From the NCBI GenBank assembly GCA_905235745.1, contig CAJOMN010000017.1, forward strand, positions 1 to 62,169: a stretch of DNA of 62,169 nt, read 5' to 3'. A program made the position numbers and the translations under genes. This DNA is from an uncultured Lachnospiraceae bacterium. Lineage in GTDB: Bacteria; Bacillota; Clostridia; Lachnospirales; Lachnospiraceae. Each line of letters opens with the position of its first letter. Position 1 is the stretch's first letter. The notes under the pieces are model-generated. The model saw only the letters and a program-made list of their open reading frames with translations, was not told the DNA's origin and ran no database searches. Shown here one piece after another: positions 44,718 through 62,169 of this stretch.

Positions 44718-44754
44718 GTAAACGCATTTCAGCGAACAGAGATGATGCGTTTAC
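44718..44754. promoter_or_regulatory. Inverted repeat GTAAACGCAT upstream of glmS
   Basis: GTAAACGCAT (44718-44727) and ATGCGTTTAC (44745-44754) are exact complements 17 bases apart, the second overlapping the nagB stop. The same decamer occurs at 53147 and 54971 in the ABC-transporter operon. It may be an operator for amino-sugar genes or an mRNA-end hairpin. Confidence 0.55.
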
Positions 44755-45482
44755 GAGACATAGCCGATCTCATCGGCAAGTTTCTTTTCGATGACTACAA
44801 TGGCGTCCCTGTGCAGCCTCATGAATGTTGCGGGACACATCGGGTCTATCTTGTCATCCATAAGAAGACGCCTTGCGGCTTCCTGCTTGTTGCCGTTTAT
44901 GATCATCAGGAGCGTTTTGGCCTTCATGATGCTTCCCATTCCCATAGTCACGGCATAACGCGGAACCTCATCGCGGCTGGCGAAGAATCTCGTATTTGCG
45001 TCTATCGTGCTCTCCTCAAGAGTCTCTTTGTGAGCCTTCTCGTAGAGAACCGCACCCGGCTCGTTGAAGCCGAGATGTCCGTCGGGACCGACTCCCAGTA
45101 CCTGAAGGTCGATATCAGTCCTGTCAAGTATGTCGTTGAACTCCCGCAGATTTGCTTCCACATCGCCCGTACCCTTTGCCACATATGTATTGGCCTTGTC
45201 AATATTGATATGGTTGAACAGATTGTCGTCCATAAAATATCTGTAGCTTTGCGGATGTGTGGGCTCCAGTCCCACATATTCATCAAGGTTAACGGAATGA
45301 ACCCGCGAAAAATCAAGTCCCTCTTCCCTGCATCTTCTTGCAAGCTCCCTGTACATTCCGACCGGGCTCGAACCTGTTGCAAGCCCGAGCGTGCATGACG
45401 GATTGTCCCTTACGAGCTTTTCGATAACATCTGCTGCCGCCGAAGCGCCCTCTTCGTAAGTCTGTGCTACTATTACTCTCAT
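44751..45482 (-). CDS. nagB: Glucosamine-6-phosphate deaminase
   Basis: A 243-residue enzyme converting glucosamine-6-phosphate to fructose-6-phosphate and ammonia. GLATGSSPVGMYRELARRCR binds the phosphate, and the active-site loop is VHSVNLDEYVGL and GVGPDGHLGFNEPG. The start is the ATG 45482 (MRVIVAQTYEEG) behind GGAGGGAAAT; a longer frame upstream has no family similarity. It lies between the acyltransferase gene and glmS, so the two opposed reactions of glucosamine-6-phosphate metabolism are neighbours. Confidence 0.94.
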   Translation of the reverse strand: MRVIVAQTYEEGASAAADVIEKLVRDNPSCTLGLATGSSPVGMYRELARRCREEGLDFSRVHSVNLDEYVGLEPTHPQSYRYFMDDNLFNHINIDKANTYVAKGTGDVEANLREFNDILDRTDIDLQVLGVGPDGHLGFNEPGAVLYEKAHKETLEESTIDANTRFFASRDEVPRYAVTMGMGSIMKAKTLLMIINGNKQEAARRLLMDDKIDPMCPATFMRLHRDAIVVIEKKLADEIGYVS

Positions 45483-47864: not shown

Positions 47865-47880
47865 GCAGTCGTTCCTTTCC

Positions 47881-47972
47881 GCACCGGGCCAGCCACCGAT
47901 CCGGTGCTTTACAGCAGACAAAAAATAGATACCGCTCACTATAATACAAGATATAGTGCTACGGTATCTATT
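47881..47972 (-). promoter_or_regulatory. glmM leader with two hairpins, terminator-like
   Basis: In transcription order: a long stem (outer arms AATAGATACCG, inner CACTATA/TATAGTG, 47924-47972) followed by TTTTTT, then a GC stem GCACCGG/CCGGTGC (47881-47907) that touches the ribosome site. The first is a terminator for transcripts arriving from dapL. The promoter below would start inside its 5' arm and leave it shortened. Confidence 0.7.
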
Positions 47973-48066: not shown

Positions 48067-49251
48067 TCAGGCTCCCATGCGGACGATCCGATCTACTGCT
48101 TCGCGCGTATTTTCCCGGCTTCCGAATGCAGTCAGCCGGAAGTATCCCTCTCCGCATGCGCCGAACCCGGAGCCCGGAGTTCCGACCACGCCTGCCTCTT
48201 CGATAAGCCTGTCGAAGAATTCCCAGCTTGTCATGCCGTCCGGAACCGCCATCCAGACGTATGGCGAATTGACTCCCCCGAACGCTTTATAACCCGCCTT
48301 CGTAAGCCCCGATAATATATAACATGCGTTATCCATATAGTAATCCACAAGAGCGGCAACCTGTTTCTTCCCTTCGGGAGAATATACCGCCTCTCCTGCC
48401 CTCTGGACTATATACGGGGCTCCGTTGTACTTGGTGGCGTGTCTCCTTGCCCAGAGCGAATTGAGTGACACACCTTCCCTTACAAGGTCTTTGGGCACGA
48501 CCGTATATCCGAGCCGCAGTCCCGTAAATCCCGCATTCTTGGAAAAGGAGTGAAGCTCTATCGCACATTCCCGGGCACCGCTGCATTCATATATCGAATG
48601 CGGCACGTCATCCTCCCTGATATATGCCTCGTATGCGGCATCAAATATTATAACGGAGCTGTTTTGGGCCGCGTAGTCAACCCACTTCTGAAGCTCATCC
48701 CGGGTAAGCGCCGTACCCGTCGGATTATTCGGCGAGCAAAGATATATGATATCGTAAGCCTCATCCGGTATCTGCGGCACGAATCCGTTTTCAGCAGTGC
48801 ACGCAAGATAACTGATCCTGCGTCCCGCCATTACGTTTGAATCCACATACACGGGATACACCGGATCACATACCGCTACCGAGGCATCTGCGGAGAATAT
48901 CTCCTGTATATTGCCCGAATCCGGCTTGGCTCCGTCCGATATGAATATCTCATCCTCGTCTATATCGCAGCCCCTTTGCCGGTAATCATTCTCGCAGACC
49001 GCACGCCGCAGAAAACCATACCCCCTGTCAGGCGCATACCCGCGAAACGTCTTCTCGTCCGCCATTTCGTCGACTGCGGCATGAAGCGCGTCTGTTACAG
49101 CCTGCGGAAGCGGTCTTGTAACATCCCCGATCCCGAGCCTTATTATATTCGTATCAGGGTGCGCCGATGTGTACGCATTTACCTTCTGTGCGATAGTCGA
49201 AAACAGGTAGCTTCCGGCAAGCTTATTGTAATTGTCATTGATCTTAACCAT
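48067..49251 (-). CDS. dapL: LL-diaminopimelate aminotransferase
   Basis: A 394-residue PLP-dependent aminotransferase that makes LL-diaminopimelate directly from tetrahydrodipicolinate. The start MVKINDNYNKLAGSYLFSTI is the typical DapL start; IRLGIGDVTRPLPQ, IYLCSPNNPTGTALTRDELQ, and the PLP-lysine region HSFSKNAGFTGLRLGYTVVP (Lys in SKNAG) are the family's. It supplies DAP for the MurE with DNPR at 3.4 kb and for lysine. I use the ATG 49251 behind GGGAGAGAATGC. It follows the ANTAR gene by 34 bases, so transcription from the glnA promoter could reach it. Confidence 0.94.
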   Translation of the reverse strand: MVKINDNYNKLAGSYLFSTIAQKVNAYTSAHPDTNIIRLGIGDVTRPLPQAVTDALHAAVDEMADEKTFRGYAPDRGYGFLRRAVCENDYRQRGCDIDEDEIFISDGAKPDSGNIQEIFSADASVAVCDPVYPVYVDSNVMAGRRISYLACTAENGFVPQIPDEAYDIIYLCSPNNPTGTALTRDELQKWVDYAAQNSSVIIFDAAYEAYIREDDVPHSIYECSGARECAIELHSFSKNAGFTGLRLGYTVVPKDLVREGVSLNSLWARRHATKYNGAPYIVQRAGEAVYSPEGKKQVAALVDYYMDNACYILSGLTKAGYKAFGGVNSPYVWMAVPDGMTSWEFFDRLIEEAGVVGTPGSGFGACGEGYFRLTAFGSRENTREAVDRIVRMGA

Positions 49252-49285
49252 GCATTCTCTCCCTTTATCATTAATATCCGATCCG

Positions 49286-49825
49286 TCATTCATCTATCAT
49301 GGACACTATCATATGTGCAGTCTCGGTCAGTGTCCTGCCCATATCCATGCTGTTCTTCTGCAGATACCGGTACGCCTCGGGCTCGGTCATGTTGTTCCTC
49401 GCCATCAGGAGTGCCTTGGCTCTGTCTATCGTCTGCTTGTCAAGCGCGCTTCGCGCAGGCGGACCTTTCCTGCGTCCGGTCATCTGCTCCGGCAGCAGCA
49501 TACGGGCGCTGTTTACCAGATCAGATGTCCGAAACGGCATCTGAAGAACTATTATATTGCTCGAATACAGACCTATCTGTACATCTTTCGTAAGCAGGAG
49601 CATACTAAGCGTTGCGGGAAGATAATTATGCAGCTCCTCGTAACCCATGTCCGGAAGCTTACGGGTGCAGATGACAAGACTGATGTCCATATCTTCTATC
49701 CTGCGCAGGATTTCCGATCCGGAAGCGCATATAAGCGTATCCGCATATATGTCGCTTTGCCTGATTATAGATGTGATCCGTTCCGAGTCTTCATGTTTGG
49801 GCATTGCCACGATTATCGCGCCCAT
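49286..49825 (-). CDS. ANTAR-domain antiterminator regulator
   Basis: A 179-residue protein. Residues about 125-178 are an ANTAR RNA-binding domain (DKQTIDRAKALLMARNNMTE, then PEAYRYLQKNSMDMGRTLTE). The N-terminal 115 residues form a receiver-like fold (MGAIIVAMPKHEDSERITSI, LVICTRKLPDMGYEELH) but lack the usual DD, D and K set, so it is a pseudo-receiver that may sense a ligand or protein instead of being phosphorylated. ANTAR proteins stop transcription termination by binding paired hairpins in leaders. It lies 20 bases after glnA, whose leader has a terminator hairpin; related glnA-linked ANTAR proteins are known in clostridia. Confidence 0.85.
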   Translation of the reverse strand: MGAIIVAMPKHEDSERITSIIRQSDIYADTLICASGSEILRRIEDMDISLVICTRKLPDMGYEELHNYLPATLSMLLLTKDVQIGLYSSNIIVLQMPFRTSDLVNSARMLLPEQMTGRRKGPPARSALDKQTIDRAKALLMARNNMTEPEAYRYLQKNSMDMGRTLTETAHMIVSMIDE

Positions 49826-49845
49826 CCGGTCTCCTCACACGAATC

Positions 49846-51132
49846 CTACAGTTTTGCAAGATAATTACGAATCTCCCAGTCGGTAACCTCGGATATAAAA
49901 TCATGCCATTCGGCTTCCTTGATACTTGTGTATATATCCGTAAAGTCCTTTCCGAGAGCATCCGTCAGAGTCTTATCATTCCGAAGATCGTACAGTGCTT
50001 CGCGAAGATTATCGGGAAGGTGTCCGCGATCATCCGTTGAATATACCTCCATTTCCCCGCCCGGAGATGTATGACGTGCGATACCGTCAAGCCCCGCCGC
50101 CATGCAAGTTGCGAACAGAAGATACGGATTGGCTGCGCCGTCCGGAAAACGTATCTCAACCTTGACATCATCAGGCTCGGTATCTATGTTTACGAGAGCC
50201 TTTTCTCCCTTGGATGCCCAGTTGATCATATACGGGGCGTCAAGACCGGACAGCAGTCTCTTATATGAATTGACAATGGGATTGGCTACCGCCGCAAGCC
50301 CTCTCGCATGCTCCATTATCCCTCCGGCAAACCACATTGCCTCATCCGAAGGTCTTCCGTCCGGTGCCATAAACACGTTCCTTCCGCCCTTCATGAGCCT
50401 TAAACGGATATGCATTCCGGAACCGGCGACACCGGGACGCGGCATAGGCATAAATGTCGCATATAACCCGAACCGCTTGGCGATCGACCTTACGGCAAAC
50501 TTAAACGTCTGAATGGAATCGGCCATTACAAACGCATCCTCCTCCTGAAAATCTATCTCATGCTGCGCCGGAGCATGCTCATGATGCGATGACTCGATCT
50601 CAAAGCCCATCTCCTCGAGCATGAGCACAATATCCCTTCGTGCGTTCTCGCCGAAATCAACGGGGCCCACATCCATATACTCCGCGATCTCGTGCGATGT
50701 CGTTGTAGGCAGTCCGTTTTCATCAGTATGGAACAGGAAGAATTCACACTCCGGATCGACTATGAAGCTGTAACCGCTTGCTGCCGCGCTATCGACGGCT
50801 TTCTTCAGAATATATCTCGGCGCGTTTTCAAAGGGAGTCCCGTCCGCATAGAACACATCGCAGAATATCTTGGCAACCTTGCCCTGCTGCGGTCTCCACG
50901 GAAGGATCTTGAACGTTTCAAGATCAGGATACAGATACAGTTTATCGTCAAGCTCATATTTATTGCCGTATATCGCGGCGCCGTAGAACGAGTATCTGTT
51001 ATCAAACACCTTGCCCATCTGTCCGGGTGTTACGGCGATATTCTTCAGATTACCGAATATATCGGTAAACTGCAGCCTGATGAATTCCACTCCCTCCTCA
51101 TCGATCATACTCAATATGTCTTCTTTTTTCAT
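49846..51132 (-). CDS. glnA: Glutamine synthetase, type I
   Basis: A 428-residue GSI enzyme joining ammonia to glutamate. It opens MKKEDILSMIDEEGVEFIRL; the metal-binding part follows as VDPECEFFLFHTDENGLPTT and SSHHEHAPAQHEIDF. GVAGSGMHIRLRLMKGGRNV and PIVNSYKRLLSGLDAPYMIN are the glutamate and ATP motifs. Residues near the end (VEIRFPDGAANPYLLFATCM) are typical of GSI-alpha of Firmicutes, which is usually feedback-regulated rather than adenylylated. The ATG follows GGAAGGAGAACATC. The leader contains an attenuator-like terminator and the next gene is the ANTAR regulator. Confidence 0.95.
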   Translation of the reverse strand: MKKEDILSMIDEEGVEFIRLQFTDIFGNLKNIAVTPGQMGKVFDNRYSFYGAAIYGNKYELDDKLYLYPDLETFKILPWRPQQGKVAKIFCDVFYADGTPFENAPRYILKKAVDSAAASGYSFIVDPECEFFLFHTDENGLPTTTSHEIAEYMDVGPVDFGENARRDIVLMLEEMGFEIESSHHEHAPAQHEIDFQEEDAFVMADSIQTFKFAVRSIAKRFGLYATFMPMPRPGVAGSGMHIRLRLMKGGRNVFMAPDGRPSDEAMWFAGGIMEHARGLAAVANPIVNSYKRLLSGLDAPYMINWASKGEKALVNIDTEPDDVKVEIRFPDGAANPYLLFATCMAAGLDGIARHTSPGGEMEVYSTDDRGHLPDNLREALYDLRNDKTLTDALGKDFTDIYTSIKEAEWHDFISEVTDWEIRNYLAKL

Positions 51133-51167: not shown

Positions 51168-51200
51168 AAAAAAAGGGTCATGAAATAATCCCATGACACC
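51168..51200 (-). terminator. Attenuator-like terminator in the glnA leader
   Basis: On the minus strand GGTGTCATG and CATGACCC pair around GGATTATTT, and TTTTTTT follows. A promoter-like TATAAT lies at 51225-51230, before it, and glnA starts 36 bases after it, so most transcripts would stop unless terminator formation is prevented. The hexanucleotide AAAGGT lies in the loop of a 3-base GAC/GTC stem just before it. Confidence 0.75.
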
Positions 51201-51255: not shown

Positions 51256-52371
51256 TTATATTATCCTGACAATCTTCCAGTCACTGTCAATGAGAAGTGC
51301 CCGGGCCCGTCTTCCCTCATCTATAATGCCGAGTTCATCTCCCATTCCGATCGACGCCGGAGGATTGCATGCTGCAGCTCTTATTGCATCCTCGGCAGGG
51401 ATTCCCATATTAACAGCCTCGGTCATACAGTCATACAGATTGGTGACGCTCCCGGCTATAGTTCCGCTTTGCTGCCTGGCCACCCTTCCGTTTTTGATGA
51501 CGGGAATGCCGCCAAGCTCATAGTCGCCGTCCGGCATTCCGCATGCTCTCATGCTGTCGCTGATAAGTACTATCCTGTCAGAACCGAACAGCCTGAATGC
51601 CGCCCTGACGCATGAGGCGTGCACGTGCACACCGTCACATATGATCTCAGCGTATACATTATCTCTTTCGGCAGCTGCACCGATGACTCCGGGATTCCGG
51701 TGATGGAGCGGGGGCATGGCGTTAAACAGATGTGTTACATGATCGGCACCCCTTGCAAAGCCTTCGGATGCGCGGTCATAATCCGCGTCCGTATGGCCGA
51801 CCGAAAAATGAACCCGGCCGGACAGCCGGCTGATGCACTCCATGGCGCCCTCCACTTCGGGGGCGATCGTAACAAGCCTTATCATGCCGTTTGCAGCCAC
51901 AAGCAGCTCCTCAAGAACCCCTGCATCGGGGGCGGCAACATATTCCGGATTCTGTGCCCCGACCTTATTCGGCGAGATAAACGGTCCCTCCAGATTGATC
52001 CCGATCAGTTCGGCCTCGTCTTCGTCTCCCCGGTGCATGGCCGCGGTTTCGCATATCTTCTTTAATCTGTCAGTGGGCAGTGTCATTGTCGCCGGGCATA
52101 TGTTCAGTACACCGGCGCTTTTCTCGTATCTTGCCATAACGGAGATCGCTTCATCCGTACCGTCGCACAGGTCGCTCCCCATGCATCCGTGAAAATGGAT
52201 ATCGGTAAGACCTGGTATCAGCCGCAGATTATACCCGTCGATGATATCCTCGCCATTTTCCGGTATTACCGGCTCCGTGCAAAGCTTTTCATATACGCCG
52301 TTTGCGATACGCACGTTCATACGCTCGAAGCGGTAATCTTTGGTATATACAAGTACATTATTGATTATCAT
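51256..52371 (-). CDS. nagA: N-acetylglucosamine-6-phosphate deacetylase
   Basis: A 371-residue amidohydrolase that removes acetate from GlcNAc-6-phosphate. LIPGLTDIHFHGCMGSDLCD has the first metal histidines. The others are in INLEGPFISPNKVGAQNPEY (Glu), VHFSVGHTDADYDRASEGFA, DHVTHLFNAMPPLHHRNPGV, and the catalytic Asp in IVLISDSMRACGMPDGDYEL. The start is the ATG 52371 (MIINNVLVYTKD), 14 bases after the response-regulator stop; longer frames are inside that gene. It is the last gene of the phosphorylase-ABC operon and links it to NagB. Confidence 0.94.
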   Translation of the reverse strand: MIINNVLVYTKDYRFERMNVRIANGVYEKLCTEPVIPENGEDIIDGYNLRLIPGLTDIHFHGCMGSDLCDGTDEAISVMARYEKSAGVLNICPATMTLPTDRLKKICETAAMHRGDEDEAELIGINLEGPFISPNKVGAQNPEYVAAPDAGVLEELLVAANGMIRLVTIAPEVEGAMECISRLSGRVHFSVGHTDADYDRASEGFARGADHVTHLFNAMPPLHHRNPGVIGAAAERDNVYAEIICDGVHVHASCVRAAFRLFGSDRIVLISDSMRACGMPDGDYELGGIPVIKNGRVARQQSGTIAGSVTNLYDCMTEAVNMGIPAEDAIRAAACNPPASIGMGDELGIIDEGRRARALLIDSDWKIVRII

Positions 52372-52384
52372 ATCATTATCCGTT

Positions 52385-53125
52385 TCAGATCTTATTTCTG
52401 TATTCGTTCGCCGACATTCCCGTGTATTTCCTGAACACTCTGGAAAAATGCGCTGTATCGGCAAAACCGACCTTCTCCGAAATATCGGATATGTGCAGTG
52501 AAGGATCATCCATCAGCTCCTGCGCCTTTTTGATCCTTATCTCGTTAAGAATGTCGGAGAAGCTCTTTCCGGTAGCGTTAAGAAGCTTGCTCAAGTGCCA
52601 GTGGCTGACATATACCGCCTGCGCCACATCGGTAAGCTGGAGCTTTTCCCTGTAGTGCTGCTCTATATACGCAACAGCCTGGCTTACGATAAAATTATTG
52701 GCGTTTGTCTTGTCTTCCCCGGTATCATCCCCGCCTCCGGCCTCACCCGTTCCGGCAAGATTGTTTACAGCGGTCTCCAGAGCCTCCTTGAGTTCATCCA
52801 TCTTCGACGGCTTGACAAGGTACCTGTGAACGCCGAGAGTCAGCGCAGTCCTTGCATATTCGAAATCCCTGTATCCCGTCAGGATGATAACCTGCAGATT
52901 CCCGTATTCAGAACGCAGGGCTGCCACCATAGTAAGGCCGTCCATTCCCGGCATCCTTATGTCGGTAAACAGTATATCGGGATTACTCGACCTTACAAGC
53001 TCGAGTCCTTCCTTGCCCGATGATGCGGTTCCGACAACGACACAGTTATAGCCGTCCCAGTCAATGGTCTTCCTCAGGCCTTCGGCGATCAACGGTTCAT
53101 CATCCACAATAACGACCTTATACAT
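52385..53125 (-). CDS. YesN-like response regulator, AraC family
   Basis: A 246-residue two-component regulator. The receiver (MYKVVIVDDEPLIAEGLRKT, phosphoacceptor Asp in DILFTDIRMPGMDGLTM, Lys in YLVKPSKM) is followed after a Gly/Asp-rich linker by two AraC helix-turn-helix motifs (LQLTDVAQAVYVSHWHLSKL, INDEIRIKKAQELMD-like, and VGFADTAHFSRVFRKYTGMS). It should be the partner of the sensor kinase at 56.5 kb in the same operon, as in YesMN systems controlling sugar uptake. It is preceded by the ABC permease with a GTAAACGCATCATC motif in the spacer. Confidence 0.92.
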   Translation of the reverse strand: MYKVVIVDDEPLIAEGLRKTIDWDGYNCVVVGTASSGKEGLELVRSSNPDILFTDIRMPGMDGLTMVAALRSEYGNLQVIILTGYRDFEYARTALTLGVHRYLVKPSKMDELKEALETAVNNLAGTGEAGGGDDTGEDKTNANNFIVSQAVAYIEQHYREKLQLTDVAQAVYVSHWHLSKLLNATGKSFSDILNEIRIKKAQELMDDPSLHISDISEKVGFADTAHFSRVFRKYTGMSANEYRNKI

Positions 53126-53146
53126 ATGATTTTCTCCGCTTATATG

Positions 53147-53160
53147 GTAAACGCATCATC
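53147..53160. promoter_or_regulatory. GTAAACGCATCATC motif before the response regulator
   Basis: The same 14 bases occur, in reverse complement, at 44741-44754 after nagB. Here it covers the stop codon of the permease gene and the 30-base spacer to the response regulator. Confidence 0.45.
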
Positions 53161-54007
53161 CCTTGATCGCACCCGCCGTCATTCCTTTGATTATATTCTT
53201 CTGAAGGAGTATGTATACTATTATCACGGGTATTATCACAAGAGTCACCGCGGCAGCCATAAGACCGTAGTTCGTGCCTTCCTTGGATGACAGCTCGTTG
53301 AGCAGTCTCGTTATAGCCTGCATCTCCGGTCTTCGCAGGAAGAACATCTGCGTAAACAGATCGTTGTAGCTCCACAGGAAAGAAAATATGGCGACCGTCA
53401 CAAAAGAAGGTTTCCCGAGAGGAACTACTATCCTGGTATATATCCCCGGTATCGTACAGCCCTCCAGATAGGCGGCCTCTTCAAGCTCCAGGGGCAGCGA
53501 CCGGATGAAGCCCATCAGTACGATTATGGCAAAGCTCGTATTTCCGGCGATCTGCGGCAGTATTACCGACAGCATGTTGAGCAGCCAGCTCGACGTGTTG
53601 GTGATATGCCATGAGGTTTCCATCGTATATACGGGAATAATGGTGGAAAAGACCGGAAACATCATAGCCGCGATAACCATAGTATAACACAGCTTCTTCA
53701 GTTTGAAATCAAACCTTACGAGAGCAAACGCCGCAAGCCCCGCAAGCAGCATGACGCCTATCGTCACACACGTTGAAATGAATATGCTGTTTATATACGC
53801 TCTCCCGATCGAGAGCCTGTCAAATGCCCTCTTGTAATTGGCGAGTGTGAACAGATCCCCCACAGGAAGAGCGAAGCTTTGATTCAGTATCTTATCCTTG
53901 ACCTTGAACGAATTCTCTATTACCCAGAACAGCGGGTATATTGTCGTCGCAGCCCACGCCGCGAGTATGACGTACAGAACGGTCAGTCCGGCTTTGTTTC
54001 TTTTCAT
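53156..54007 (-). CDS. Carbohydrate ABC transporter permease, second subunit
   Basis: A 283-residue membrane permease of the CUT1 family with six helices (GLTVLYVILAAWAATTIYPL, LAGLAAFALVRFDFKLKKLC, and so on). The EAA loop for ATPase contact is visible (LELEEAAYLEGCTIPGIYTR IVVPLGKPSF in part). It pairs with the upstream permease and the solute-binding protein. No ATP-binding subunit is encoded nearby, so a shared MsmK-type ATPase is expected. It lies two bases after the first permease. Confidence 0.92.
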   Translation of the reverse strand: MKRNKAGLTVLYVILAAWAATTIYPLFWVIENSFKVKDKILNQSFALPVGDLFTLANYKRAFDRLSIGRAYINSIFISTCVTIGVMLLAGLAAFALVRFDFKLKKLCYTMVIAAMMFPVFSTIIPVYTMETSWHITNTSSWLLNMLSVILPQIAGNTSFAIIVLMGFIRSLPLELEEAAYLEGCTIPGIYTRIVVPLGKPSFVTVAIFSFLWSYNDLFTQMFFLRRPEMQAITRLLNELSSKEGTNYGLMAAAVTLVIIPVIIVYILLQKNIIKGMTAGAIKG

Positions 54008-54009
54008 GA

Positions 54010-54897
54010 TTACAGATCCTCGCTTTCCCTGAAGATGAGACGCGTGAGCCTTGACAGTACCACTCCGAGTACAACTATAAGGATTGCAAGAGTAGCGCCG
54101 TAGTCAACGTTCTTGGCTTCCATTGTCTGATAGTACATATACGTTCCGGTGAGAAATGTCTGCTTAAGCGGCATTCCCTTCGGGAACATCGTCCACGGAA
54201 GATCGAAAACCTTCAGTGCGCCCGTAACCCCGAGTGTAAGGCATGTGCATATAACATTCCTCAGCATCGGGATCGATATGTAGAATACCCTCTGGAACCT
54301 TGTCGCTCCGTCTATCGCCGCCGACTCGTACAGTTCCTCCGAAATATTGTTAAGACCCGTTTCGAGTATCACGAAATAGAATCCCACATACTGCCATACG
54401 ACCGGGATCATCATTGTCACAAGAGCATGCGACTCGTTCTTCCAGTCCGTAAGATCGGTTTTCCCGAAGAATTCAAGCAGCTGGTTTAACATTCCCTTGT
54501 CATACAAAAAGATCAGGTTGAACAAAAGACCGAGAGCCGTTGCCGATATCACTATCGGGAAGAAATAAACGGTACGGAAGAACTGCGTCCCCTTCGGGAT
54601 ATTATCTACCATAAGCGCCAGTATGAGCGCTATCCCGACCTGTCCGACTATTGTAACTATTATCATGTAGAGCGTGTTGATAAGCGATGTCCTTACGACC
54701 GGATCGGTTGCAAGCTTGACATAGTTCTCATACCACGGAGAATTCCATTTGTTGCCGTATGTCCCGAGTGTCCTGATGGAACGGAAGCTGCTGTATATGT
54801 TCACAAAGAACGGATAATACAGATACACCGTCAGAAATATAAAGGCAGGAAGCAGGAATAAGAAGACGTATTTTTTGTTTTTGTATATATTCGACAT
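54010..54897 (-). CDS. Carbohydrate ABC transporter permease, first subunit
   Basis: A 295-residue CUT1 permease (YVFLFLLPAFIFLTVYLYYP start). The EAA motif is ELYESAAIDGATRFQRVFYI SIPMLRN in part. Start after AGGGGGTTCGC. It is followed by the second permease and preceded by the terminator hairpin 54916-54949. Confidence 0.92.
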   Translation of the reverse strand: MSNIYKNKKYVFLFLLPAFIFLTVYLYYPFFVNIYSSFRSIRTLGTYGNKWNSPWYENYVKLATDPVVRTSLINTLYMIIVTIVGQVGIALILALMVDNIPKGTQFFRTVYFFPIVISATALGLLFNLIFLYDKGMLNQLLEFFGKTDLTDWKNESHALVTMMIPVVWQYVGFYFVILETGLNNISEELYESAAIDGATRFQRVFYISIPMLRNVICTCLTLGVTGALKVFDLPWTMFPKGMPLKQTFLTGTYMYYQTMEAKNVDYGATLAILIVVLGVVLSRLTRLIFRESEDL

Positions 54898-54915
54898 TGC
54901 GAACCCCCTTTTATA

Positions 54916-54949
54916 AAATGACCGGCAGGTTGCGACCTGCCGGTCATTT
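54916..54949 (-). terminator. Hairpin between solute-binding protein and permease genes
   Basis: AAATGACCGGCAGGT and ACCTGCCGGTCATTT are perfect 15-base arms around TGCG, followed by TTATA on the minus strand. In sugar ABC operons such a hairpin lets the binding protein be made in excess over the permeases. Confidence 0.8.
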
Positions 54950-54950
54950 A

Positions 54951-54981
54951 TAGCAAACGCACCTGATAAATGCGTTTACTA
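54951..54981. promoter_or_regulatory. Second inverted repeat with ATGCGTTTAC motif
   Basis: TAGCAAACGCA (54951-54961) and TGCGTTTACTA (54971-54981) pair with one mismatch. The 16 bases AAATGCGTTTACTATA here equal the reverse complement of 44715-44730 upstream of glmS. Confidence 0.5.
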
Positions 54982-54998
54982 TAACAAAGGCTTATTGA

Positions 54999-56393
54999 TT
55001 ATTCAAGTGTTTCCTGATAGATATCAATGCCTTCCTGTACTGCATCAGCTGCACTTACATTGCCTTCAACTATGTCGGGCATACCGTCGAATGTAGGTAC
55101 CCGGCAGTCGCCGTTGAACAGATCCTGAACTGCTCCCGTAAGGCTTGTAACGCCGCTCATCATATCCATTGCCTTAACCTGAAGTGCGTTGAACTGGCTC
55201 TCGTCAACAGCCGGAGCGTTCTTGAGTGCAGATGCCGTATGCTGTGCGAATAAAGGAACAACCTCATCACTTGTCATATGCTCTACAAAGCTGACTGCTG
55301 CTGCCTGCTTGTCGGGATCTTCCCATGCCTTGGTCGTGATGTAATATCCCATTGAAAGACCGCCTACAAGATCTGTTGCCTTACGATTGCCCTTTGAAGG
55401 GAAATATGTTACGTCAAAATGTCCGACTCTTTCAGCATCGATCGTCGAAGGATCATCGGGATCAGACTGGCATGCACCTACTATACCGCCGACCTTCCAT
55501 GAACCGTCAAGAAGGAATGCTGCCTTGTCATCCGTAAACATCGCGAACGTCTCGTCATCTGTTGCGGACAGGGTGTTCTCCGGGAAGAATCCTTTATCAT
55601 ACAGATCCTTGATATCATTAAGACCATCTACCCACTGTGTGCCTGTTGCATCGGTTGCGCTTCCGGGTATGTTCAGATGCTCATCGGGCGTCTGCTGATT
55701 GTAAATGCAGAACTCCCACCAGTAATGAGGTATGTTGCCAAGTGCAGCCGCTATAGGTGTATAACCTGCCTCTTTGATCTTTCCGCAATCGGCGATGAAC
55801 TGATCCCATGTGTAATCGGCACCGGGCATTGCAACGCCGGCCTCATCGAGAACCTTTGTATTGACAAACATTGCTTCCCAATATCCGTTTACGGGAACCG
55901 CATACTTGACTCCGTCCGCCGGAGAAGCTGCGATAAGATCATCGTTCATATTGGATGCGTATTCGGGATATGCGGAACGGATCTCATCGATTGAAACGAC
56001 CTTGCCTGCATTTACAAAATCATTTGCATCGGCTCCGTTGAAGAAGAACAGAACATCAGGTTCGGAACCTACTTCAAAATCTGTGATGACTCTCGTCTTG
56101 AATGTCTCGTCACTTGTTGCCGATGTATCGCTTACCTTGTTGCCTGTCTCGGCTTCCCATGCCGCAACGGCGTCCTTGTAGTTCTGGGCGTTCGTATCTT
56201 CGCCTGCGAATGTTGTTGTTACAGTAAGCTCAACGCCTCCTGCCGCCTCACTTGCGCTCTCCGCTGCTTCGGCAACGGTATCAGGCTCTGCTGCGCTTCC
56301 GCCATCTGCCGGTGCGGCCGATGATGCGCAACCGGTAACAGCAGTTGCCATTGCTGCCGCAAGTAAAATTGCTGTAAACTTTTTCATTTTCAT
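54999..56393 (-). CDS. Sugar ABC transporter solute-binding lipoprotein
   Basis: A 464-residue type 1 solute-binding protein. Signal sequence MKMKKFTAILLAAAMATAVT with lipobox VTGC, then a Ser/Ala/Glu linker and two alpha-beta lobes (VTTTFAGEDTNAQNYKDAVA, VPVNGYWEAMFVNTKVLDEA, AAFLLDGSWKVGGIVGACQS). It belongs to the CUT1 family binding oligosaccharides; with a GlcNAc-disaccharide phosphorylase in the operon a chitooligosaccharide ligand is likely but not proven. Start behind GGGAGACAGGT. Its 3' end is followed by two hairpins. Confidence 0.92.
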   Translation of the reverse strand: MKMKKFTAILLAAAMATAVTGCASSAAPADGGSAAEPDTVAEAAESASEAAGGVELTVTTTFAGEDTNAQNYKDAVAAWEAETGNKVSDTSATSDETFKTRVITDFEVGSEPDVLFFFNGADANDFVNAGKVVSIDEIRSAYPEYASNMNDDLIAASPADGVKYAVPVNGYWEAMFVNTKVLDEAGVAMPGADYTWDQFIADCGKIKEAGYTPIAAALGNIPHYWWEFCIYNQQTPDEHLNIPGSATDATGTQWVDGLNDIKDLYDKGFFPENTLSATDDETFAMFTDDKAAFLLDGSWKVGGIVGACQSDPDDPSTIDAERVGHFDVTYFPSKGNRKATDLVGGLSMGYYITTKAWEDPDKQAAAVSFVEHMTSDEVVPLFAQHTASALKNAPAVDESQFNALQVKAMDMMSGVTSLTGAVQDLFNGDCRVPTFDGMPDIVEGNVSAADAVQEGIDIYQETLE

Positions 56394-56453
56394 ACCTGTC
56401 TCCCTTCTGTGGACGGCAGAGCCGCCATCTTTGTTTTCAAATTACAAGGTTAG

Positions 56454-56459
56454 ATTATA
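56454..56459 (-). promoter_or_regulatory. Possible promoter of the transporter genes
   Basis: A TATAAT on the minus strand lies 60 bases before the solute-binding-protein start, in the 99-base space after the kinase gene. The -35 region is poor, as for an activator-dependent promoter. A regulatory link to the AraC-type regulator is inference. Confidence 0.4.
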
Positions 56460-56492
56460 TGATTTACAGCCGGATGTGGATTGCTGATTTTG

Positions 56493-58232
56493 CTATTTTT
56501 TGACAATAATTGCAGACACTGTATTTCCATGTCCGTCGGTCGAGATATACAGTCCGCTTTCCTGACCGTAGAAGATCTTAAGCCTCCTGTTGACGTTGCG
56601 TATCCCTATCCGGACGGCTCTTTCCTCAAGAGGGTCATACTCCTGCGCATTGTCGAGCAGCTCGTGAATCTTCTCCCAGTCTTCCTCCGACGGTTCTCCG
56701 TGGTTGATTATCCTGATACATATATCAATATGCCCGTCCGAACATGTTCCTCCGATGTTCAGGCTGACGTGACGGTCATCCTCGCTGTCATTGCAGTGAT
56801 TGACGGCATTTTCTATCACGGGCTGGATTATGAGCCTTGGCACTTTGACATTCAGAAGCTTTTCATCGATATCTTCATCATAAGTAAATCTGTCCTGATA
56901 ACGGCACTCGATTATATACAGATATGCATGAACATACTCAAGCTCTTCCGAGAGCGTGATCATCGACTGGTGCTTCCTGTCCATGGTCGCATTCATCATG
57001 GTTGAAAGCGCCTCTATCATACGGCTTACCTTTTCATCACCGTTGATCCTCGCCTCCCAGTTGATGATCTCAAGCGTATTATTAAGGAAATGCGGATTGA
57101 TCTGTGACTGCAGCGCATGGATATTGGCATCCCTTAATGCCAGTTCCTCTACAAATATCCTGTCGAACTGTTCGTGGAGCTTTTCGCTCATCAGGTTGAA
57201 ATTGCCTGCAAGATCGCCTATCTCCCCTTTCCGCTTCTCATAGCTTTCGTCAACCTTTACACCGTAATTGCCGTCGGCGATCTGTCTTGAAGCATCAGTA
57301 AGCGTGGAAATGGGCAGACTGACATTTTTGTGGAGAAAGTAAAATACTACCATTATAAGAGGTGCCAGAAACAGCAGCAGACCGAAAAATGTTATCAGAA
57401 TATAGTTCTTTTCGACGTTTATGATCTGCCTGTCGCAGCTAACCAGATAGACAAATCCCGGTTCCTTGGAGGAAGGGATATAATACACTTCGGGAGCGCG
57501 TCCGTTTGGAATAAAGGCTGCTCTTCCCCTGTCGTCTCCGGTATCAGGTATCGTACCGGTAACGCCGTCGGATGTTATGACGCTGCCGTTATCAAACACC
57601 GTCATTCCATGATATGACCATACGCTTTTAAGGCTTTCGAATATCCTCGCCGAATTCAGTTCCATTACAAGGACGGCGTATGGCTCAAAGCTCCTGTTCA
57701 TGATATTTCTGATCATGTACAGGTGATCCCCGCTCGCAAAGAATCCGACCTTGGTATCAAGTGCTTCCGACCGTGATAATGCATCGTCGAGCACACTATC
57801 CCTGAAATAGCGAAGCCGGGCGGTACTTCCCCGTCCAGTCGCGTTTCCCGAATAATATACGTCTTCGGGCTTATCCGTATATATAAGCACGGTCAGATCA
57901 AAGTTCGGATTGTACATATACTGTTCGGACAAAAATCTCATCGTGCTGTCATACAGATCCCCCGGATTATTATCCTTCTGGTATTTCGTCCATGCATTTC
58001 TGATATCCGGACGATATGACGCTTCACGCGAAGCGGCAATACAATCCGATATTCTCAGTTCGCATATCTCGGATGCTTTTTCCATGGAGGTTTCGACCGC
58101 ACGCTTTGTCTGTCTTTCGATCTGCCCCGAAACGATCATAAGAAATATGACCGCTACTATAACGATCGGCACGATCCAACCGAGAAGCAGCATCCTCAGC
58201 ATCTGCCATTTTAATGTTTCCTGCTGTTTCAT
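56493..58232 (-). CDS. YesM-like sensor histidine kinase
   Basis: A 579-residue membrane sensor. Transmembrane helix 1 (LRMLLLGWIVPIVIVAVIFL) and helix 2 (ILITFFGLLLFLAPLIMVVF, about 285-310) enclose an external sensor region of about 240 residues; a HAMP linker follows. The phosphorylated His is in ALQSQINPHFLNNTLEIINW, and the ATP-binding lobe shows VIENAVNHCNDSEDD and VRIGIRNVNRRLKIFYGQ. It matches family-2 kinases paired with AraC-type regulators. I prefer the ATG 58232; a TTG two codons earlier is nearer to AAGGAATT. It is third in the operon, after the mutase. Confidence 0.92.
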   Translation of the reverse strand: MKQQETLKWQMLRMLLLGWIVPIVIVAVIFLMIVSGQIERQTKRAVETSMEKASEICELRISDCIAASREASYRPDIRNAWTKYQKDNNPGDLYDSTMRFLSEQYMYNPNFDLTVLIYTDKPEDVYYSGNATGRGSTARLRYFRDSVLDDALSRSEALDTKVGFFASGDHLYMIRNIMNRSFEPYAVLVMELNSARIFESLKSVWSYHGMTVFDNGSVITSDGVTGTIPDTGDDRGRAAFIPNGRAPEVYYIPSSKEPGFVYLVSCDRQIINVEKNYILITFFGLLLFLAPLIMVVFYFLHKNVSLPISTLTDASRQIADGNYGVKVDESYEKRKGEIGDLAGNFNLMSEKLHEQFDRIFVEELALRDANIHALQSQINPHFLNNTLEIINWEARINGDEKVSRMIEALSTMMNATMDRKHQSMITLSEELEYVHAYLYIIECRYQDRFTYDEDIDEKLLNVKVPRLIIQPVIENAVNHCNDSEDDRHVSLNIGGTCSDGHIDICIRIINHGEPSEEDWEKIHELLDNAQEYDPLEERAVRIGIRNVNRRLKIFYGQESGLYISTDGHGNTVSAIIVKK

Positions 58233-58238
58233 TATCAA

Positions 58239-59648
58239 TTACAGGTCAAGAAATTCCTTATAAATATTGCACACCTGTTCCGCCTGCTCCCTCTCCGGCA
58301 TCTCGCAGAATATTCGAAGCAGCGGTTCCGTTCCGGAAAATCGTGTGCAGACCCATCCTCCGCACTTAAAGTATACCTTACATCCGTCAATATAGGAAAC
58401 CCTATCTGTCTCAAAAGGAAGTTCCGGTATCTCCCGGTCCTCCATAAGGCGCTTTTCATAGGCGGCTCTTTGCTCGGGACGGAATGTGCAGTTACATTCC
58501 TCCATGTACAGGCTTCCGAATTCGCGTGTGATCTCATCATATATCTCCGACATCCTGCAGCCCGTTACGGCAAGCATTTCAACAAGCAGCGCAGCGGCAT
58601 ATACTCCGTCCTTGCCGTTTATATGTCCCCTTACCGTAAGCCCTCCGGAGGATTCTCCGCCTATAAGGGCATCAGTCTCGGAAATCCTGGCTGATATATG
58701 CTTGAACCCAACAGGCACTTCATAACAGACTTCACCGTATCTGGCGGCGATCCTGTCGAGCATATGCGTTGTGCATATATTTCTGACCACGGGGCCTGTT
58801 TCGCCGCGGTATTTCTTGAGGTAGTAATACAGCATTACCAGAATATCATTCGGGGTAATGTAGCGCCCTTTGTCGTCAACGATACCTATCCTGTCCGCGT
58901 CACCGTCCGTTGCGATACCTATATCGCAGTGCTTATCTATAACGCACGTTTTGAGCGGTTCCATTGCGGCTGCGTTCGGTGCGGGAAGCTTACCACCGAA
59001 GAGTGTGTCATGCATGCCGTGTATTGTCTCCACCTCGCATCTTGCGGTAAGCAGTATTGTTTTGATCGCATTCTCTGCAACTCCGTACATCGGATCGAGC
59101 GCTGCCTTGAGTCCGGCATTTCTGATGGCGACAATATCTATCTTATTGATTATCGCATCAAGATAATCATTTATGGGATAGAATTCATCAATAAGACCTG
59201 CCGCTTTCGCATCGTCATAATTCTCGGCGGGTACCGGAAGCGCCACATCCGAAATGTATTCTTCTATCTGCGCGGTCTGTGTTTCGTCGGCATCCCTTCC
59301 GCCGCCGGTAAACACCTTCACACCGTTATATACTGCGGGATTATGGCTTGCGGTTATCATCATGCCGTATGGCAGATCATTTTCCATTACATAATACATG
59401 ACAAGAGGCGTAGGACACGACTTGTTGATGAGCTTCGCCTTTATCCCGTTAGCCGCGAACACCTCGCTTGCCCACTGCATGGCCTCCTTGGACAGGAATC
59501 TCCTGTCATATCCCATGACAATACCGCTTCCGTCAACCTTCTCGTCCTTCATCTTGGAAGCCATTGCCTGTGCCAGTATCTGAATATTCTCCTTGGTAAA
59601 TTCGTCACCGATGACAGCACGCCAGCCGCCTGTTCCAAATCTGATCAT
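58239..59648 (-). CDS. Phosphohexomutase, probably acting on sugar-1-phosphates from the phosphorylase
   Basis: A 469-residue member of the alpha-D-phosphohexomutase family. It begins MIRFGTGGWRAVIGDEFTKE; the phosphoserine is Ser101 in ITASHNPAVYNGVK, the metal loop IATDGDADRIGIVDD, the sugar loop GGESSGGLTV, and the phosphate loop RFSGTEPLLRIFCEMPE. Family members act on glucose, mannose, GlcN or GlcNAc phosphates. It lies directly after the GH94 gene. In Vibrio a similar mutase next to chitobiose phosphorylase turns GlcNAc-1-P into GlcNAc-6-P, and that role is inferred here. Start after AGAGGGGGACAT. Confidence 0.88.
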   Translation of the reverse strand: MIRFGTGGWRAVIGDEFTKENIQILAQAMASKMKDEKVDGSGIVMGYDRRFLSKEAMQWASEVFAANGIKAKLINKSCPTPLVMYYVMENDLPYGMMITASHNPAVYNGVKVFTGGGRDADETQTAQIEEYISDVALPVPAENYDDAKAAGLIDEFYPINDYLDAIINKIDIVAIRNAGLKAALDPMYGVAENAIKTILLTARCEVETIHGMHDTLFGGKLPAPNAAAMEPLKTCVIDKHCDIGIATDGDADRIGIVDDKGRYITPNDILVMLYYYLKKYRGETGPVVRNICTTHMLDRIAARYGEVCYEVPVGFKHISARISETDALIGGESSGGLTVRGHINGKDGVYAAALLVEMLAVTGCRMSEIYDEITREFGSLYMEECNCTFRPEQRAAYEKRLMEDREIPELPFETDRVSYIDGCKVYFKCGGWVCTRFSGTEPLLRIFCEMPEREQAEQVCNIYKEFLDL

Positions 59649-59658
59649 ATGTCCCCCT

Positions 59659-62046
59659 CTACATAAACGCTTCTACAATATGTTCTTTTCCGTCGTTAAA
59701 TACCGGTATGGATGATGCCGCCGTACCGTCAACGGTCATCTTGCGGATCCCCTTCTGCTTATGCTCGGGATTCCTGACGGTTATCGTATAAGTGCTCCCG
59801 CGGAATTGCCTTTGAACCGTATATTCGTCCCAGTCGGATGAAATGCACGGATCCAGAACAAGCCCGTCATAACCGGGTCTTATCCCGAGTATATAATGCG
59901 TGACCGCATAGTATGCCCATCCGCCGCTTCCGGTCATGAACGGATGATGCGCCCTGCCGTATGTCGTATGATCCTTCCCGGATATGAACTGGCAGTAGGA
60001 ATACGGCTCCGACATGCGGATCTCTATCATGTCATTCTGGTAATACGGACAAAGCGAATGGTAATACTCCATTGCCGTATCCCCGTGACCCATCAGGCAT
60101 TCCGCCGACCACACCCATGGATTGGGATGTGAAAAGATACTGCCGTTTTCCTTCAGTCCCGGATATACTCTTGTAACGAAGCCTATCTCATCATCGGGAA
60201 CCGTATAGACCGGGGCATTGAGCATTATCCCGTATGGTGTGGCAAGTTCATCATGTATGGTCTTTAACGCCTTCTGTGCCCTGTAGCCATCGGCAGCTCC
60301 GGATAATACCGCCCATGCGTTTGATTCGAGATGTACCTTCCCCTCACGGTTATCCTTCGTCCCTATCTTGCGCCCGCTGCTTGTAAAGCCGCGTATGAAC
60401 CAGTCGCCGTCCCACAGTACGTCGTCACAGACGGTCCTGATCTTCCCGGCATCGGCGATAAACCGCTTCTCATTCTCCCTGTCATCACGCAGGGCAGCGA
60501 TCTCCGACATGACCGTAAGAGCCTTATACAGCAGGAAAGTTACAAGTGCGCTCTCTCCTCCTCCGAGATTCAGGCAGTCATTCCAGTCCGCGCGGAGTCC
60601 CTTGCAGACTCCGTTTTCACCGACCTGTTCCATGGAGAATCCGACTATTCTCCTCATGTGGTCGTATACAGTGCCTTCGCCGCCGTCCGCATATGAATAT
60701 GTCTCGTCTAAAAAGCCCGTGTCTCCGGTCTCCTTTACATATTCCGCTATAGTCGGGATGAGCCACAAAGCGTCATCGGAACATACATCCTCAATACCGT
60801 GAACCTTGACTGCCGGTTCGGGGATAACGGTCGGGGAACGAAACGGCTTCTTACGGGTCTCGCTGCTCTTATCGTACCATCGCGGCTCAAACAGATGTAT
60901 TCCGTATCCCGATGTTGTAAGAGCACGCAACAGTTCTTCTATCCTCTGTCTGCAGCCCCGCGGGTTGGTCGCGATAACAGTCATCGCATCCTGAGCGGTA
61001 TCACGGTATCCGAGTCCCGTTCTTCCCCCAACCTCTATGAATGAGGCAAACCGCGAGAACATAACGTTTATTTCGGACTGATACAAAGTCCATATGTTGA
61101 TCATCGTATCCACGCCGTCATCGGGAGAGCTGACGCGGAACTTGTCCTGTTTATTCTTCCAGTAATCCGCCAATTGCCGGTATGCACTGTCAAGTGCATC
61201 CGTATCCTCATATTTCTTCCTGATCGCTTTCGCGTCGTCAAGTCTTCCCTCTCCGAGATAATATACAAGCCTTACCGTTTCACCGGAAGCAAGCGACAGG
61301 CTCTTTTGCAGCCCCGCACAGTGATTGCCGCCCAGTTCCTTCGAGCCGCTGCACTTGCCCGATACGACTGCCGCGGGATTCGATTCGGAATTATATGTCC
61401 CTATGAACGCATCCCTTACACAGTCATATCCGTCCGGCTCGAAATTTGCCGTAAAGTACTGGTATCCCTCTTCTTCATAGAACAGGTCGTACAGTATTGT
61501 TCCGTCCTTGTAATCCGATCCTGCGCAGTACAGGCTCATCTGGTAATTCTGGTTGTCTATCTGTATCTGGTGAAATGAAAACTCCGCATAGGAAAATACA
61601 TCAAGATCCCTCGTAACCGTATCGTTATTCCTGATCGTAACATCCCATATAAGCGCGTTGTCCCCGAGCGGAATGGTCAGTCTTTCACTTGCATGTATCG
61701 AATCGTAATCGCACTCGTATATTGAATACGACAGCCCGTGCCTTGTCCTGTATTGTGCCTCGTCAAGCGGTTTGCCGACCGGCTGCCATGAGATGCTCCA
61801 GTAGTCGCCCGTCTTGCGATCCCTGATGTATACGTAATCCCCGGGTCTGTCCATCGGAACCGAATTGCCACGGAATCTTGTAATCCTGTGATACTCCGGC
61901 GTTTTGTAGAACAGATATCCTCCCGCAGTCTGGTTGACGACGGCGCACATATCCTCCACCCCGAGATAATTGGTCCATGACGTCGGAATATCCACCCTGT
62001 CTATAACATATTCATTGTTCCGGTTGTCAAAATATCCGTATTTCAT
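59659..62046 (-). CDS. chbP: GH94 N,N'-diacetylchitobiose phosphorylase
   Basis: A 795-residue GH94 phosphorylase. From the first residues (MKYGYFDNRNNEYVIDRVDI then PTSWTNYLG) it follows the known Vibrio chitobiose phosphorylase closely: GDYWSISWQPVGKPLDEAQY, DNQNYQMSLY, LGYRDTAQDAMTVIATNPRG. ADWNDCLNLGGGES (486-499) places the catalytic general-acid Asp near position 490, the expected site. Reaction: diacetylchitobiose plus phosphate gives GlcNAc-1-P and GlcNAc. The protein has no signal peptide, so it acts inside the cell after import. A cellobiose-type specificity is less likely because these segments are those of the chitobiose subgroup. Its ATG overlaps the upstream stop (TAATG). Confidence 0.88.
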   Translation of the reverse strand: MKYGYFDNRNNEYVIDRVDIPTSWTNYLGVEDMCAVVNQTAGGYLFYKTPEYHRITRFRGNSVPMDRPGDYVYIRDRKTGDYWSISWQPVGKPLDEAQYRTRHGLSYSIYECDYDSIHASERLTIPLGDNALIWDVTIRNNDTVTRDLDVFSYAEFSFHQIQIDNQNYQMSLYCAGSDYKDGTILYDLFYEEEGYQYFTANFEPDGYDCVRDAFIGTYNSESNPAAVVSGKCSGSKELGGNHCAGLQKSLSLASGETVRLVYYLGEGRLDDAKAIRKKYEDTDALDSAYRQLADYWKNKQDKFRVSSPDDGVDTMINIWTLYQSEINVMFSRFASFIEVGGRTGLGYRDTAQDAMTVIATNPRGCRQRIEELLRALTTSGYGIHLFEPRWYDKSSETRKKPFRSPTVIPEPAVKVHGIEDVCSDDALWLIPTIAEYVKETGDTGFLDETYSYADGGEGTVYDHMRRIVGFSMEQVGENGVCKGLRADWNDCLNLGGGESALVTFLLYKALTVMSEIAALRDDRENEKRFIADAGKIRTVCDDVLWDGDWFIRGFTSSGRKIGTKDNREGKVHLESNAWAVLSGAADGYRAQKALKTIHDELATPYGIMLNAPVYTVPDDEIGFVTRVYPGLKENGSIFSHPNPWVWSAECLMGHGDTAMEYYHSLCPYYQNDMIEIRMSEPYSYCQFISGKDHTTYGRAHHPFMTGSGGWAYYAVTHYILGIRPGYDGLVLDPCISSDWDEYTVQRQFRGSTYTITVRNPEHKQKGIRKMTVDGTAASSIPVFNDGKEHIVEAFM

Positions 62047-62169
62047 TATCTGTTTTCCTCTTTGCTGTTATTCGGATCCTGCCCGCAGAACCTGATGCCG
62101 GATCCTGATTCAGAGTCTATCATCTGCCGGATAAGCCTTGAATGTCTGATTTTGGCAATTGTTGAAAAA
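62046..62169 (-). CDS. Partial upstream gene, C-terminal 40 residues
   Basis: A frame open from the right edge to a TAA that overlaps the GH94 ATG. It reads FSTIAKIRHSRLIRQMIDSE and ends RFCGQDPNNSKEENR. The overlap and the ribosome site AGAGGAAAAC for GH94 inside it support a coupled gene. Too little is present to name it. Confidence 0.5.
   Translation of the reverse strand, partial: FSTIAKIRHSRLIRQMIDSESGSGIRFCGQDPNNSKEENR

Follow-up and report, generated by a model that had tools for sequence, protein, structure and literature searches.

A predicted phosphorolytic chitobiose operon in an uncultured Lachnospiraceae bacterium and the recombined layouts of its sensor and transporter genes

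Introduction

How might a fermenting anaerobe detect, import and split chitobiose (GlcNAc-beta-1,4-GlcNAc; GlcNAc, N-acetylglucosamine)? The question is raised by an eight-gene cluster on contig CAJOMN010000017.1 of an uncultured Lachnospiraceae bacterium (GenBank assembly GCA_905235745.1; 2,496,141 bases in 32 contigs, 99.46% complete). The whole stretch analysed, hereafter the window, comprises 62,169 nucleotides. In the rumen and gut, fungi, insects and protozoa supply chitin as a sugar source, and a phosphorolytic route spares ATP, which matters to fermenters.

We consider it likely that the cluster is a chitobiose utilisation operon with a phosphorolytic pathway, a judgement that leaves aside how the sugar is sensed. 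In the proposed mechanism a lipoprotein solute-binding protein (SBP) would capture chitobiose and hand it to two CUT1-type permeases, which would borrow a UgpC/MsmK-type ATPase encoded elsewhere. A phosphorylase of family GH94 would use phosphate to split the intracellular disaccharide into GlcNAc-1-phosphate and GlcNAc; a mutase would convert the former to GlcNAc-6-phosphate, from which NagA would strip the acetyl and NagB the amino group, and no ATP would be spent on phosphorylating this half of the sugar before it enters glycolysis. The free GlcNAc half would be phosphorylated by a kinase from elsewhere, probably a ROK glucokinase, and a sensor kinase with an AraC-type regulator would switch the operon on. 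The enzymes are of known types, and the new element is a comparison of layouts in which SBP, sensor and transporter genes are recombined. In the open-licence literature, whose broad topics were covered in part, we found no description of this cassette with a chitobiose phosphorylase.

Predicted substrate of the phosphorylase and the binding protein

The GH94 protein of the window matches 1v7v, the chitobiose phosphorylase of Vibrio proteolyticus, over its full length with 1012 bits, and the remaining solved GH94 enzymes listed reach at most 515 bits, the cellobiose phosphorylases about 500. The genome's one other GH94 protein is the mirror image, scoring 1223 bits with the cellobiose phosphorylase 3qde and 469 with 1v7v. 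An ADWND stretch aligns between the window protein and 1v7v, and the catalytic acid, which we take to be Asp492 in V. proteolyticus numbering, is present. The entry 8bou, although named an N,N'-diacetylchitobiose phosphorylase, was left unused as a guide to specificity (515 bits vs 502 for cellobiose phosphorylases). In an even sample of 299 family genomes, at least 35, the present one included, match the window protein at 60% identity or more, a lower bound because at most three candidates were scored per genome; the identities are bimodal, with the rest of the matches listed (E 1e-100 or better) at or below 40%. The nearest loci in named genomes, the best 80 of 594 confirmed and the basis of all counts over 80 loci below, include that of Vibrio furnissii (L070, 54% identity), and the available text of PMC8950772 gives V. 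furnissii, V. proteolyticus and Ignavibacterium album as sources of characterised enzymes. The clade scores together with the separate cellobiose phosphorylase support the initial annotation of this protein as a probable chitobiose phosphorylase.

The SBP, judged by eye to be a lipoprotein from its N-terminal VTGC, has as its nearest solved relatives two SBPs of Paenibacillus sp. FPU-7, named NagB1 and NagB2 and not to be confused with the deaminase NagB. NagB2 ranks first by sequence (1e-20; next, 6.6e-14), by profile (1e-35, with NagB1 at 1.8e-35) and by fold (model mean pLDDT 90.3). Both are reported to bind (GlcNAc)2 and (GlcNAc)3 in the part of PMC8233162 available. From the same partial text we took a subset of the (GlcNAc)2-contact residues of NagB2 and placed them on the window protein through the NagB2 alignment, the offset being set by matching residue letters. 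Six of the nine positions are identical (Asp92, Phe116, Glu168, Trp217, Trp296, Ser334), two are conservative (Arg96 to Lys, Phe166 to Tyr) and one differs (Asn335 to Met). The phosphorylase clade and the nearest solved relatives of the SBP are thus two independent lines that support chitobiose as the predicted substrate.

As the initial annotation had it, the eight genes are consecutive and co-oriented, and all lie closely spaced on the minus strand (62046 to 51256) in the order GH94, alpha-D-phosphohexomutase, sensor kinase, SBP, two permeases, response regulator and NagA, with gaps calculated from the gene coordinates of 10, 6, 99, 101, 2, 30 and 13 bp along transcription. This order is not a matter of chance, because it recurs in many other genomes. 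The kinase carries His_kinase (PF06580) and HAMP domains and the regulator a receiver and an AraC helix-turn-helix, as in YesMN systems. An SBP_bac_1 protein with two BPD_transp_1 permeases and an ATPase gene elsewhere is the composition of a CUT1 importer, and we assume that label for both permeases. The genome holds one ATPase with an OB_MalK domain, on another contig, and the window SBP is the only strong representative of its own protein family there, the next match having an E value of 3.3e-4.

Layouts of the sensor and transporter genes

Related loci were classed by gene order and gap. In layout A, which the window shares, the kinase is followed by the SBP and the permeases; in layout C kinase, SBP and regulator stand together without permeases between them. 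The 80 loci divide into 27 with layout A, 8 with layout C, 1 other and 44 without an adjacent kinase-SBP pair (other layouts or contig ends), and 34 loci fetched from the family, our own excluded, into 22 with layout A, 4 with layout C, 1 C-like (L117), 2 other and 5 with none. The succession of kinase, SBP, two permeases and regulator is therefore the commonest layout in the family (22 of 34), and the window operon is ordinary within its family. The initial annotation had held a YesMN/CUT1 version in this kind of anaerobe worth describing; the version is indeed present here, but with at least 35 of 299 genomes matching the phosphorylase and 22 of 34 loci sharing the layout it is common in the family and not special to this genome.

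After three duplicates were dropped, the distinct set comprised 46 loci with layout A and 13 with layout C. In a tree of 58 SBPs (46 from layout A, the window's included, and 12 from layout C) the layout changes five times, at least three of these changes being forced by starred branches; the tree is a quick one that warns of long branches meeting, and the changes may be permease gains or losses. Of the 61 kinases and 61 SBPs, 5 and 4 respectively were kept out of the alignments as duplicates, a near-duplicate or a partial locus. Such recurrent gain or loss of permeases within one sensor cassette provides a natural set of loci for studying how an SBP is shared between import and signalling, or serves signalling only.

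The permease-free loci differ from the others in several respects. The SBP start lies a median of 129 bp beyond the kinase stop in layout A (46 loci) vs -4 bp in layout C (13 loci; some starts uncertain), so that in the latter it overlaps or abuts the kinase stop. Six of the 13 (L048, L055, L063, L071, L117, L118) match another permease and another SBP; L078 has a permease match only, L107 and L127 have weak permease matches only, and no other permease or SBP match was found in the available stretches of L009, L012, L049 and L103. In L055 the other transporter consists of an SBP_bac_1 protein (with DUF3502) and BPD_transp_1 permeases, presumably LplA, LplB and LplC. The other transporter set is divergent in L055 and L071, and L118 combines everything in a single row of GH94, mutase, two other permeases, another SBP, kinase, SBP and regulator. 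The SBPs differ as well: Trp225 of the window protein, in the column of the tryptophan that stacks on GlcNAc in NagB2, is tryptophan in 46 of 46 layout A proteins vs 4 of 12 layout C proteins (L107, L117, L118, L127), the remaining 8 having Leu, Ile or Val.

Some loci depart from both plans in detail. A gene for a PIG-L type deacetylase (1014-1856) lies between SBP and regulator in the permease-free unit of L117. The permease-free SBPs of L107 (6709-8064) and L127 (11564-12952) start with an apparent uncleaved membrane anchor, not a lipoprotein signal. In L020 (about 16000) and L119 the SBP frame is cut short at 171 amino acids, and the gene looks broken in the available sequence. L115 (9949-13537) has GH94 and mutase followed by another permease pair and SBP, with no sensor kinase match in the stretch.

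The RNA between the SBP and permease genes offers a further distinction. In the window this gap folds into two tandem hairpins (-47 kcal/mol, z -8.3, none of 200 shuffles as good), and z is -3 or lower in 33 of 45 such gaps of layout A, in contrast to 3 of 42 kinase-SBP gaps and 1 of 19 gaps between permease 2 and regulator. No strong hairpin element was found in the four SBP-regulator gaps of layout C that are long enough to fold. In operons for ATP-binding cassette (ABC) transporters a strong 3' hairpin usually indicates that more SBP is made than permease.

One binding protein for import and signalling?

These layouts lead us to suggest, with slightly less than even confidence, that in Lachnospiraceae and relatives kinase, SBP and regulator form a conserved chitobiose sensor unit into and out of which transporters are plugged. 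In the window layout the unit would enclose the permeases, and one SBP, overproduced by virtue of its own leader and the 3' hairpins, would serve both import and signalling; elsewhere the SBP would be coupled to the kinase gene and serve sensing only, with another transporter importing the sugar. Whether the window's kinase reads the SBP rather than the sugar alone, so that a single protein would do both transport and signalling in a three-component sensor, we regard as about evenly balanced. We infer this double role of the single SBP from the permease-free loci and by analogy with two known systems, CuaDSR and the NagB1 locus.

The first is that of Ruminiclostridium cellulolyticum, a user of cellobiose phosphorylase in which, according to the available text of PMC10384115, the SBP CuaD binds the kinase CuaS in a three-component cellobiose system. 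CuaDSR with CuaABC-CbpA resembles the window in its disaccharide phosphorylase, ABC import, kinase with a YesN/AraC regulator and SBP as third component, but it acts on cellobiose, has separate SBPs for sensing and transport, and has a regulator of 538 amino acids vs 246 in the window (PMC10384115, in the part available). The loci L118, L055 and L071 are closer to it than the window is, and the row of L118 reproduces the two-SBP plan of CuaABC/CuaDSR as set out there. In Paenibacillus sp. FPU-7, as far as the available text of PMC8233162 goes, the neighbours of NagB1 are a sensor kinase and a regulator but no permeases, those of NagB2 are two permeases but no ATPase, and a similar sensing role is suggested by the authors for NagB1. 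Two SBPs split the tasks there, unlike the window, where one SBP stands between kinase and permeases; a chitobiose phosphorylase is not mentioned for these loci in the part of PMC8233162 available. In Vibrio cholerae, as in the window on our reading, one (GlcNAc)2-binding SBP serves both transport and signalling, together with ChiS (available parts of PMC8233162 and PMC10384115).

The foremost alternative is plain two-component control, in which the extracellular domain of the kinase would bind chitobiose itself and the SBP would serve transport only; we give it an appreciable probability, somewhat below even. The fold of the kinase speaks for both sides. The model (mean pLDDT 83.3; extracellular part about 240 residues by eye) has matches that include the sensor-kinase extracellular domain 8w7p. 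Among them are also chemoreceptor ligand domains (Mlp24, Tlp3), which would suit direct binding, and LuxQ, alone and in complex with the SBP LuxP, which would suit an SBP partner; the best Foldseek matches of the whole model have a high root-mean-square deviation and are hints only. The cytoplasmic part best matches GanS, which we take to be the kinase of another SBP-linked system. The Cua system is likewise double-edged, in that CuaSR without CuaD still responds to cellobiose, yet the isolated extracellular domain of CuaS bound none (PMC10384115, available part). Against plain two-component control stand the 13 distinct loci of relatives that keep kinase, SBP and regulator together but lack the two permeases; some of them also carry another transporter and its SBP. 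In the window itself, unlike these 13, the permeases stand between SBP and regulator.

Several observations, in turn, weigh against the shared SBP. Gene neighbourhood alone cannot separate a sensor SBP from a transport SBP. The absence of the tryptophan from 8 of 12 layout C proteins means that ligand or affinity may not be the same in the two kinds of SBP. In layout A (23 sequences) the co-divergence of kinase exterior and SBP falls from a partial r of 0.79 to 0.03 once the permeases are controlled, and that with the permeases keeps 0.29 with the SBP controlled, which points to a shared cassette and not to specific kinase-SBP contact, as plain two-component control would allow. In 8 layout C loci the corresponding r is 0.63 with GH94 and regulator controlled. 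We accordingly rejected kinase-SBP coevolution as proof of contact: the partial r of 0.68 over 31 sequences, a set that omits four five-gene loci with short or oppositely oriented frames, was lost once the permeases were controlled.

Fate of the two GlcNAc halves

The initial annotation had proposed a route through NagA and NagB, and the genes bear this out as a predicted path: mutase and NagA lie in the operon, and a NagB-type gene nearby, the genome's only Glucosamine_iso match, would complete the path to fructose-6-phosphate. A relative of the mutase occurs in 63 of the 80 loci; 60 have it on the GH94 strand at a distance of no more than 500 bp. The pairing is seen across Firmicutes, Vibrio, Chloroflexi and Actinobacteria, which fits conversion of the product GlcNAc-1-phosphate. 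The comparison that had been drawn with the Vibrio chitin locus also holds. The GH94 proteins belong to the same clade (53-54% identity), and the same mutase type adjoins GH94 in all 10 Vibrio/Photobacterium loci of the 80. Unlike the window, these loci use an ABC transporter of a different kind, and 9 of the 10 have a BadF-family kinase-like gene upstream, presumably a GlcNAc kinase; no relatives of the kinase-SBP-permease-regulator set were found in the ten. The kinase, regulator and transporter families of the ChiS system presumably also differ from those of the window.

A GlcNAc kinase had been noted as missing, and there is indeed none in the operon. The absence is explained in part by L097 (genome G135), the relative whose GH94 comes closest in the sampled family (72%) and whose operon continues with NagB, NagA and a ROK kinase. 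The window's genome has three ROK matches: one is a TIGR00744 glucokinase, another joins a ManA part to a ScrK-like part, and the third resembles NagC/Mlc. The glucokinase is the best match to the operonic ROK kinase of the relative (49%), which suggests that free GlcNAc probably uses it; the relative's genome also has a second ROK protein elsewhere, 54% identical to this glucokinase. The second half would thus probably be phosphorylated by a housekeeping-type ROK glucokinase, the genome's one candidate. Of the BadF type no candidate emerged: two matches in the genome each lie in an open frame of 1415 amino acids, which we take to be a dehydratase activator.

The disaccharide itself is probably scavenged, since the genome's single GH18 match (L090 4663-6435, 590 amino acids) does not look like a secreted chitinase; among chitinase families the search covered GH18, leaving GH19, GH20 and others unsearched. 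From its apparent N-terminal membrane segment and its DGINIDFE sequence we take this protein to be more probably a cell-wall or spore-type enzyme.

Some scores count against this assignment of the pathway. The mutase scores below every NCBIfam cut-off (best TIGR03990, 289.9 against 439), so its substrate is predicted from its position. The NagB-type protein falls just below the TIGR00502 cut-off (233.6 against 236.9 bits). The xylan-system SBP 4g68 has a profile score (1e-34) close to those of NagB1 and NagB2. Among the kinase families searched, other families being unsearched, the genome has no dedicated GlcNAc kinase.

It is unlikely that GlcNAc-1-phosphate chiefly feeds UDP-GlcNAc and cell wall synthesis as salvage, not energy metabolism. 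GlmM, a GlmU-like hexapeptide protein and a GlmS-like gene (SIS and GATase domains) do lie near NagB, about 3 to 8 kb downstream of NagA, but the operon's own mutase and NagA lead the opposite way, and the nearest relative's operon adds NagB and a ROK kinase. That phosphorylase and SBP act on cellobiose or another beta-1,4-disaccharide is very improbable: GH94 spans several specificities (PMC8950772, available part) and the SBP's relatives include the xylo-oligosaccharide binders 4g68 and 3zkk, but chitin-oligosaccharide SBPs rank first with contact residues kept, NagA lies within the operon, and cellobiose as the GH94 substrate is rejected on the 1v7v score, the bimodal family identities and the separate cellobiose phosphorylase.

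Coordinates, upstream motifs and neighbouring genes

Table 1. Predicted features of the operon and its surroundings, in window coordinates
Feature	Position	Strand	Basis
Leader upstream of GH94, presumed operon promoter; 1 putative operator motif copy	62047..62169	(-)	EM search, lead only
GH94 N,N'-diacetylchitobiose phosphorylase, predicted	59659..62046	(-)	structure-database scores, family comparison
Alpha-D-phosphohexomutase, presumed GlcNAc-1-P to GlcNAc-6-P	58239..59648	(-)	domain and neighbourhood
YesM-type sensor histidine kinase, HAMP and extracellular domain	56493..58232	(-)	Pfam, model
Lipoprotein SBP (putatively for chitobiose), transport; sensing by inference	54999..56393	(-)	relatives, model
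Two strong tandem RNA hairpins, SBP-permease 1 gap	54898..54998	(-)	folding
CUT1-type permease 1	54010..54897	(-)	BPD_transp_1
CUT1-type permease 2	53156..54007	(-)	BPD_transp_1
YesN-type response regulator, receiver and AraC helix-turn-helix	52385..53125	(-)	domains
NagA, predicted GlcNAc-6-P deacetylase	51256..52371	(-)	TIGR00221, 304.6 bits, cut-off 225.65
Terminator-like hairpin 3' of NagA	51177..51197	(-)	motif match
NagB-type glucosamine-6-P deaminase, predicted, outside operon	44751..45482	(-)	Glucosamine_iso; TIGR00502 233.6 bits

Two starts in Table 1 were chosen over longer frames. NagA likely starts at the ATG at 52371, 13 bp past the regulator stop, the start in the open reading frame list (52509) being one that would overlap the regulator gene, and the sensor kinase likely starts at the ATG at 58232 and not at the TTG at 58238. 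Terminator-like sites number 8 across the region vs 9.1 in shuffles, so the match behind NagA proves nothing alone.

An expectation-maximisation (EM) search of 31 sequences upstream of GH94 returned a motif of phased GxCAA repeats (width 14, log-likelihood 104.4, against 41.2-46.6 in four mononucleotide shuffles). We treat it as a lead only, because the set contains near-identical relatives and such shuffles are weak controls; in the kinase-SBP gap 9 of 32 sequences reach p 0.05, the window's own gap having p 0.86. Perfect inverted repeats with arms of 16 and 14 nt lie upstream of GH94 in L003 (9860-9906) and L097 (13930-13967) respectively. The repeat finder located no such repeat in L004 or the window locus; upstream of the window's GH94 gene one matching arm can be made out by eye.

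Beyond the window, upstream of GH94, lies a MatE-family gene. On the other side a glutamine synthetase gene comes next after the terminator-like hairpin, followed within 48067-51132 by an ANTAR-domain regulator and, by eye, an aminotransferase-like gene. The GlmM frame (46302-47939) has about 97 open residues ahead of the usual GlmM start (MGKYFGTDGFRG); this extension looks helix-turn-helix-like by eye, and a 76-residue piece of it is without a Pfam match.

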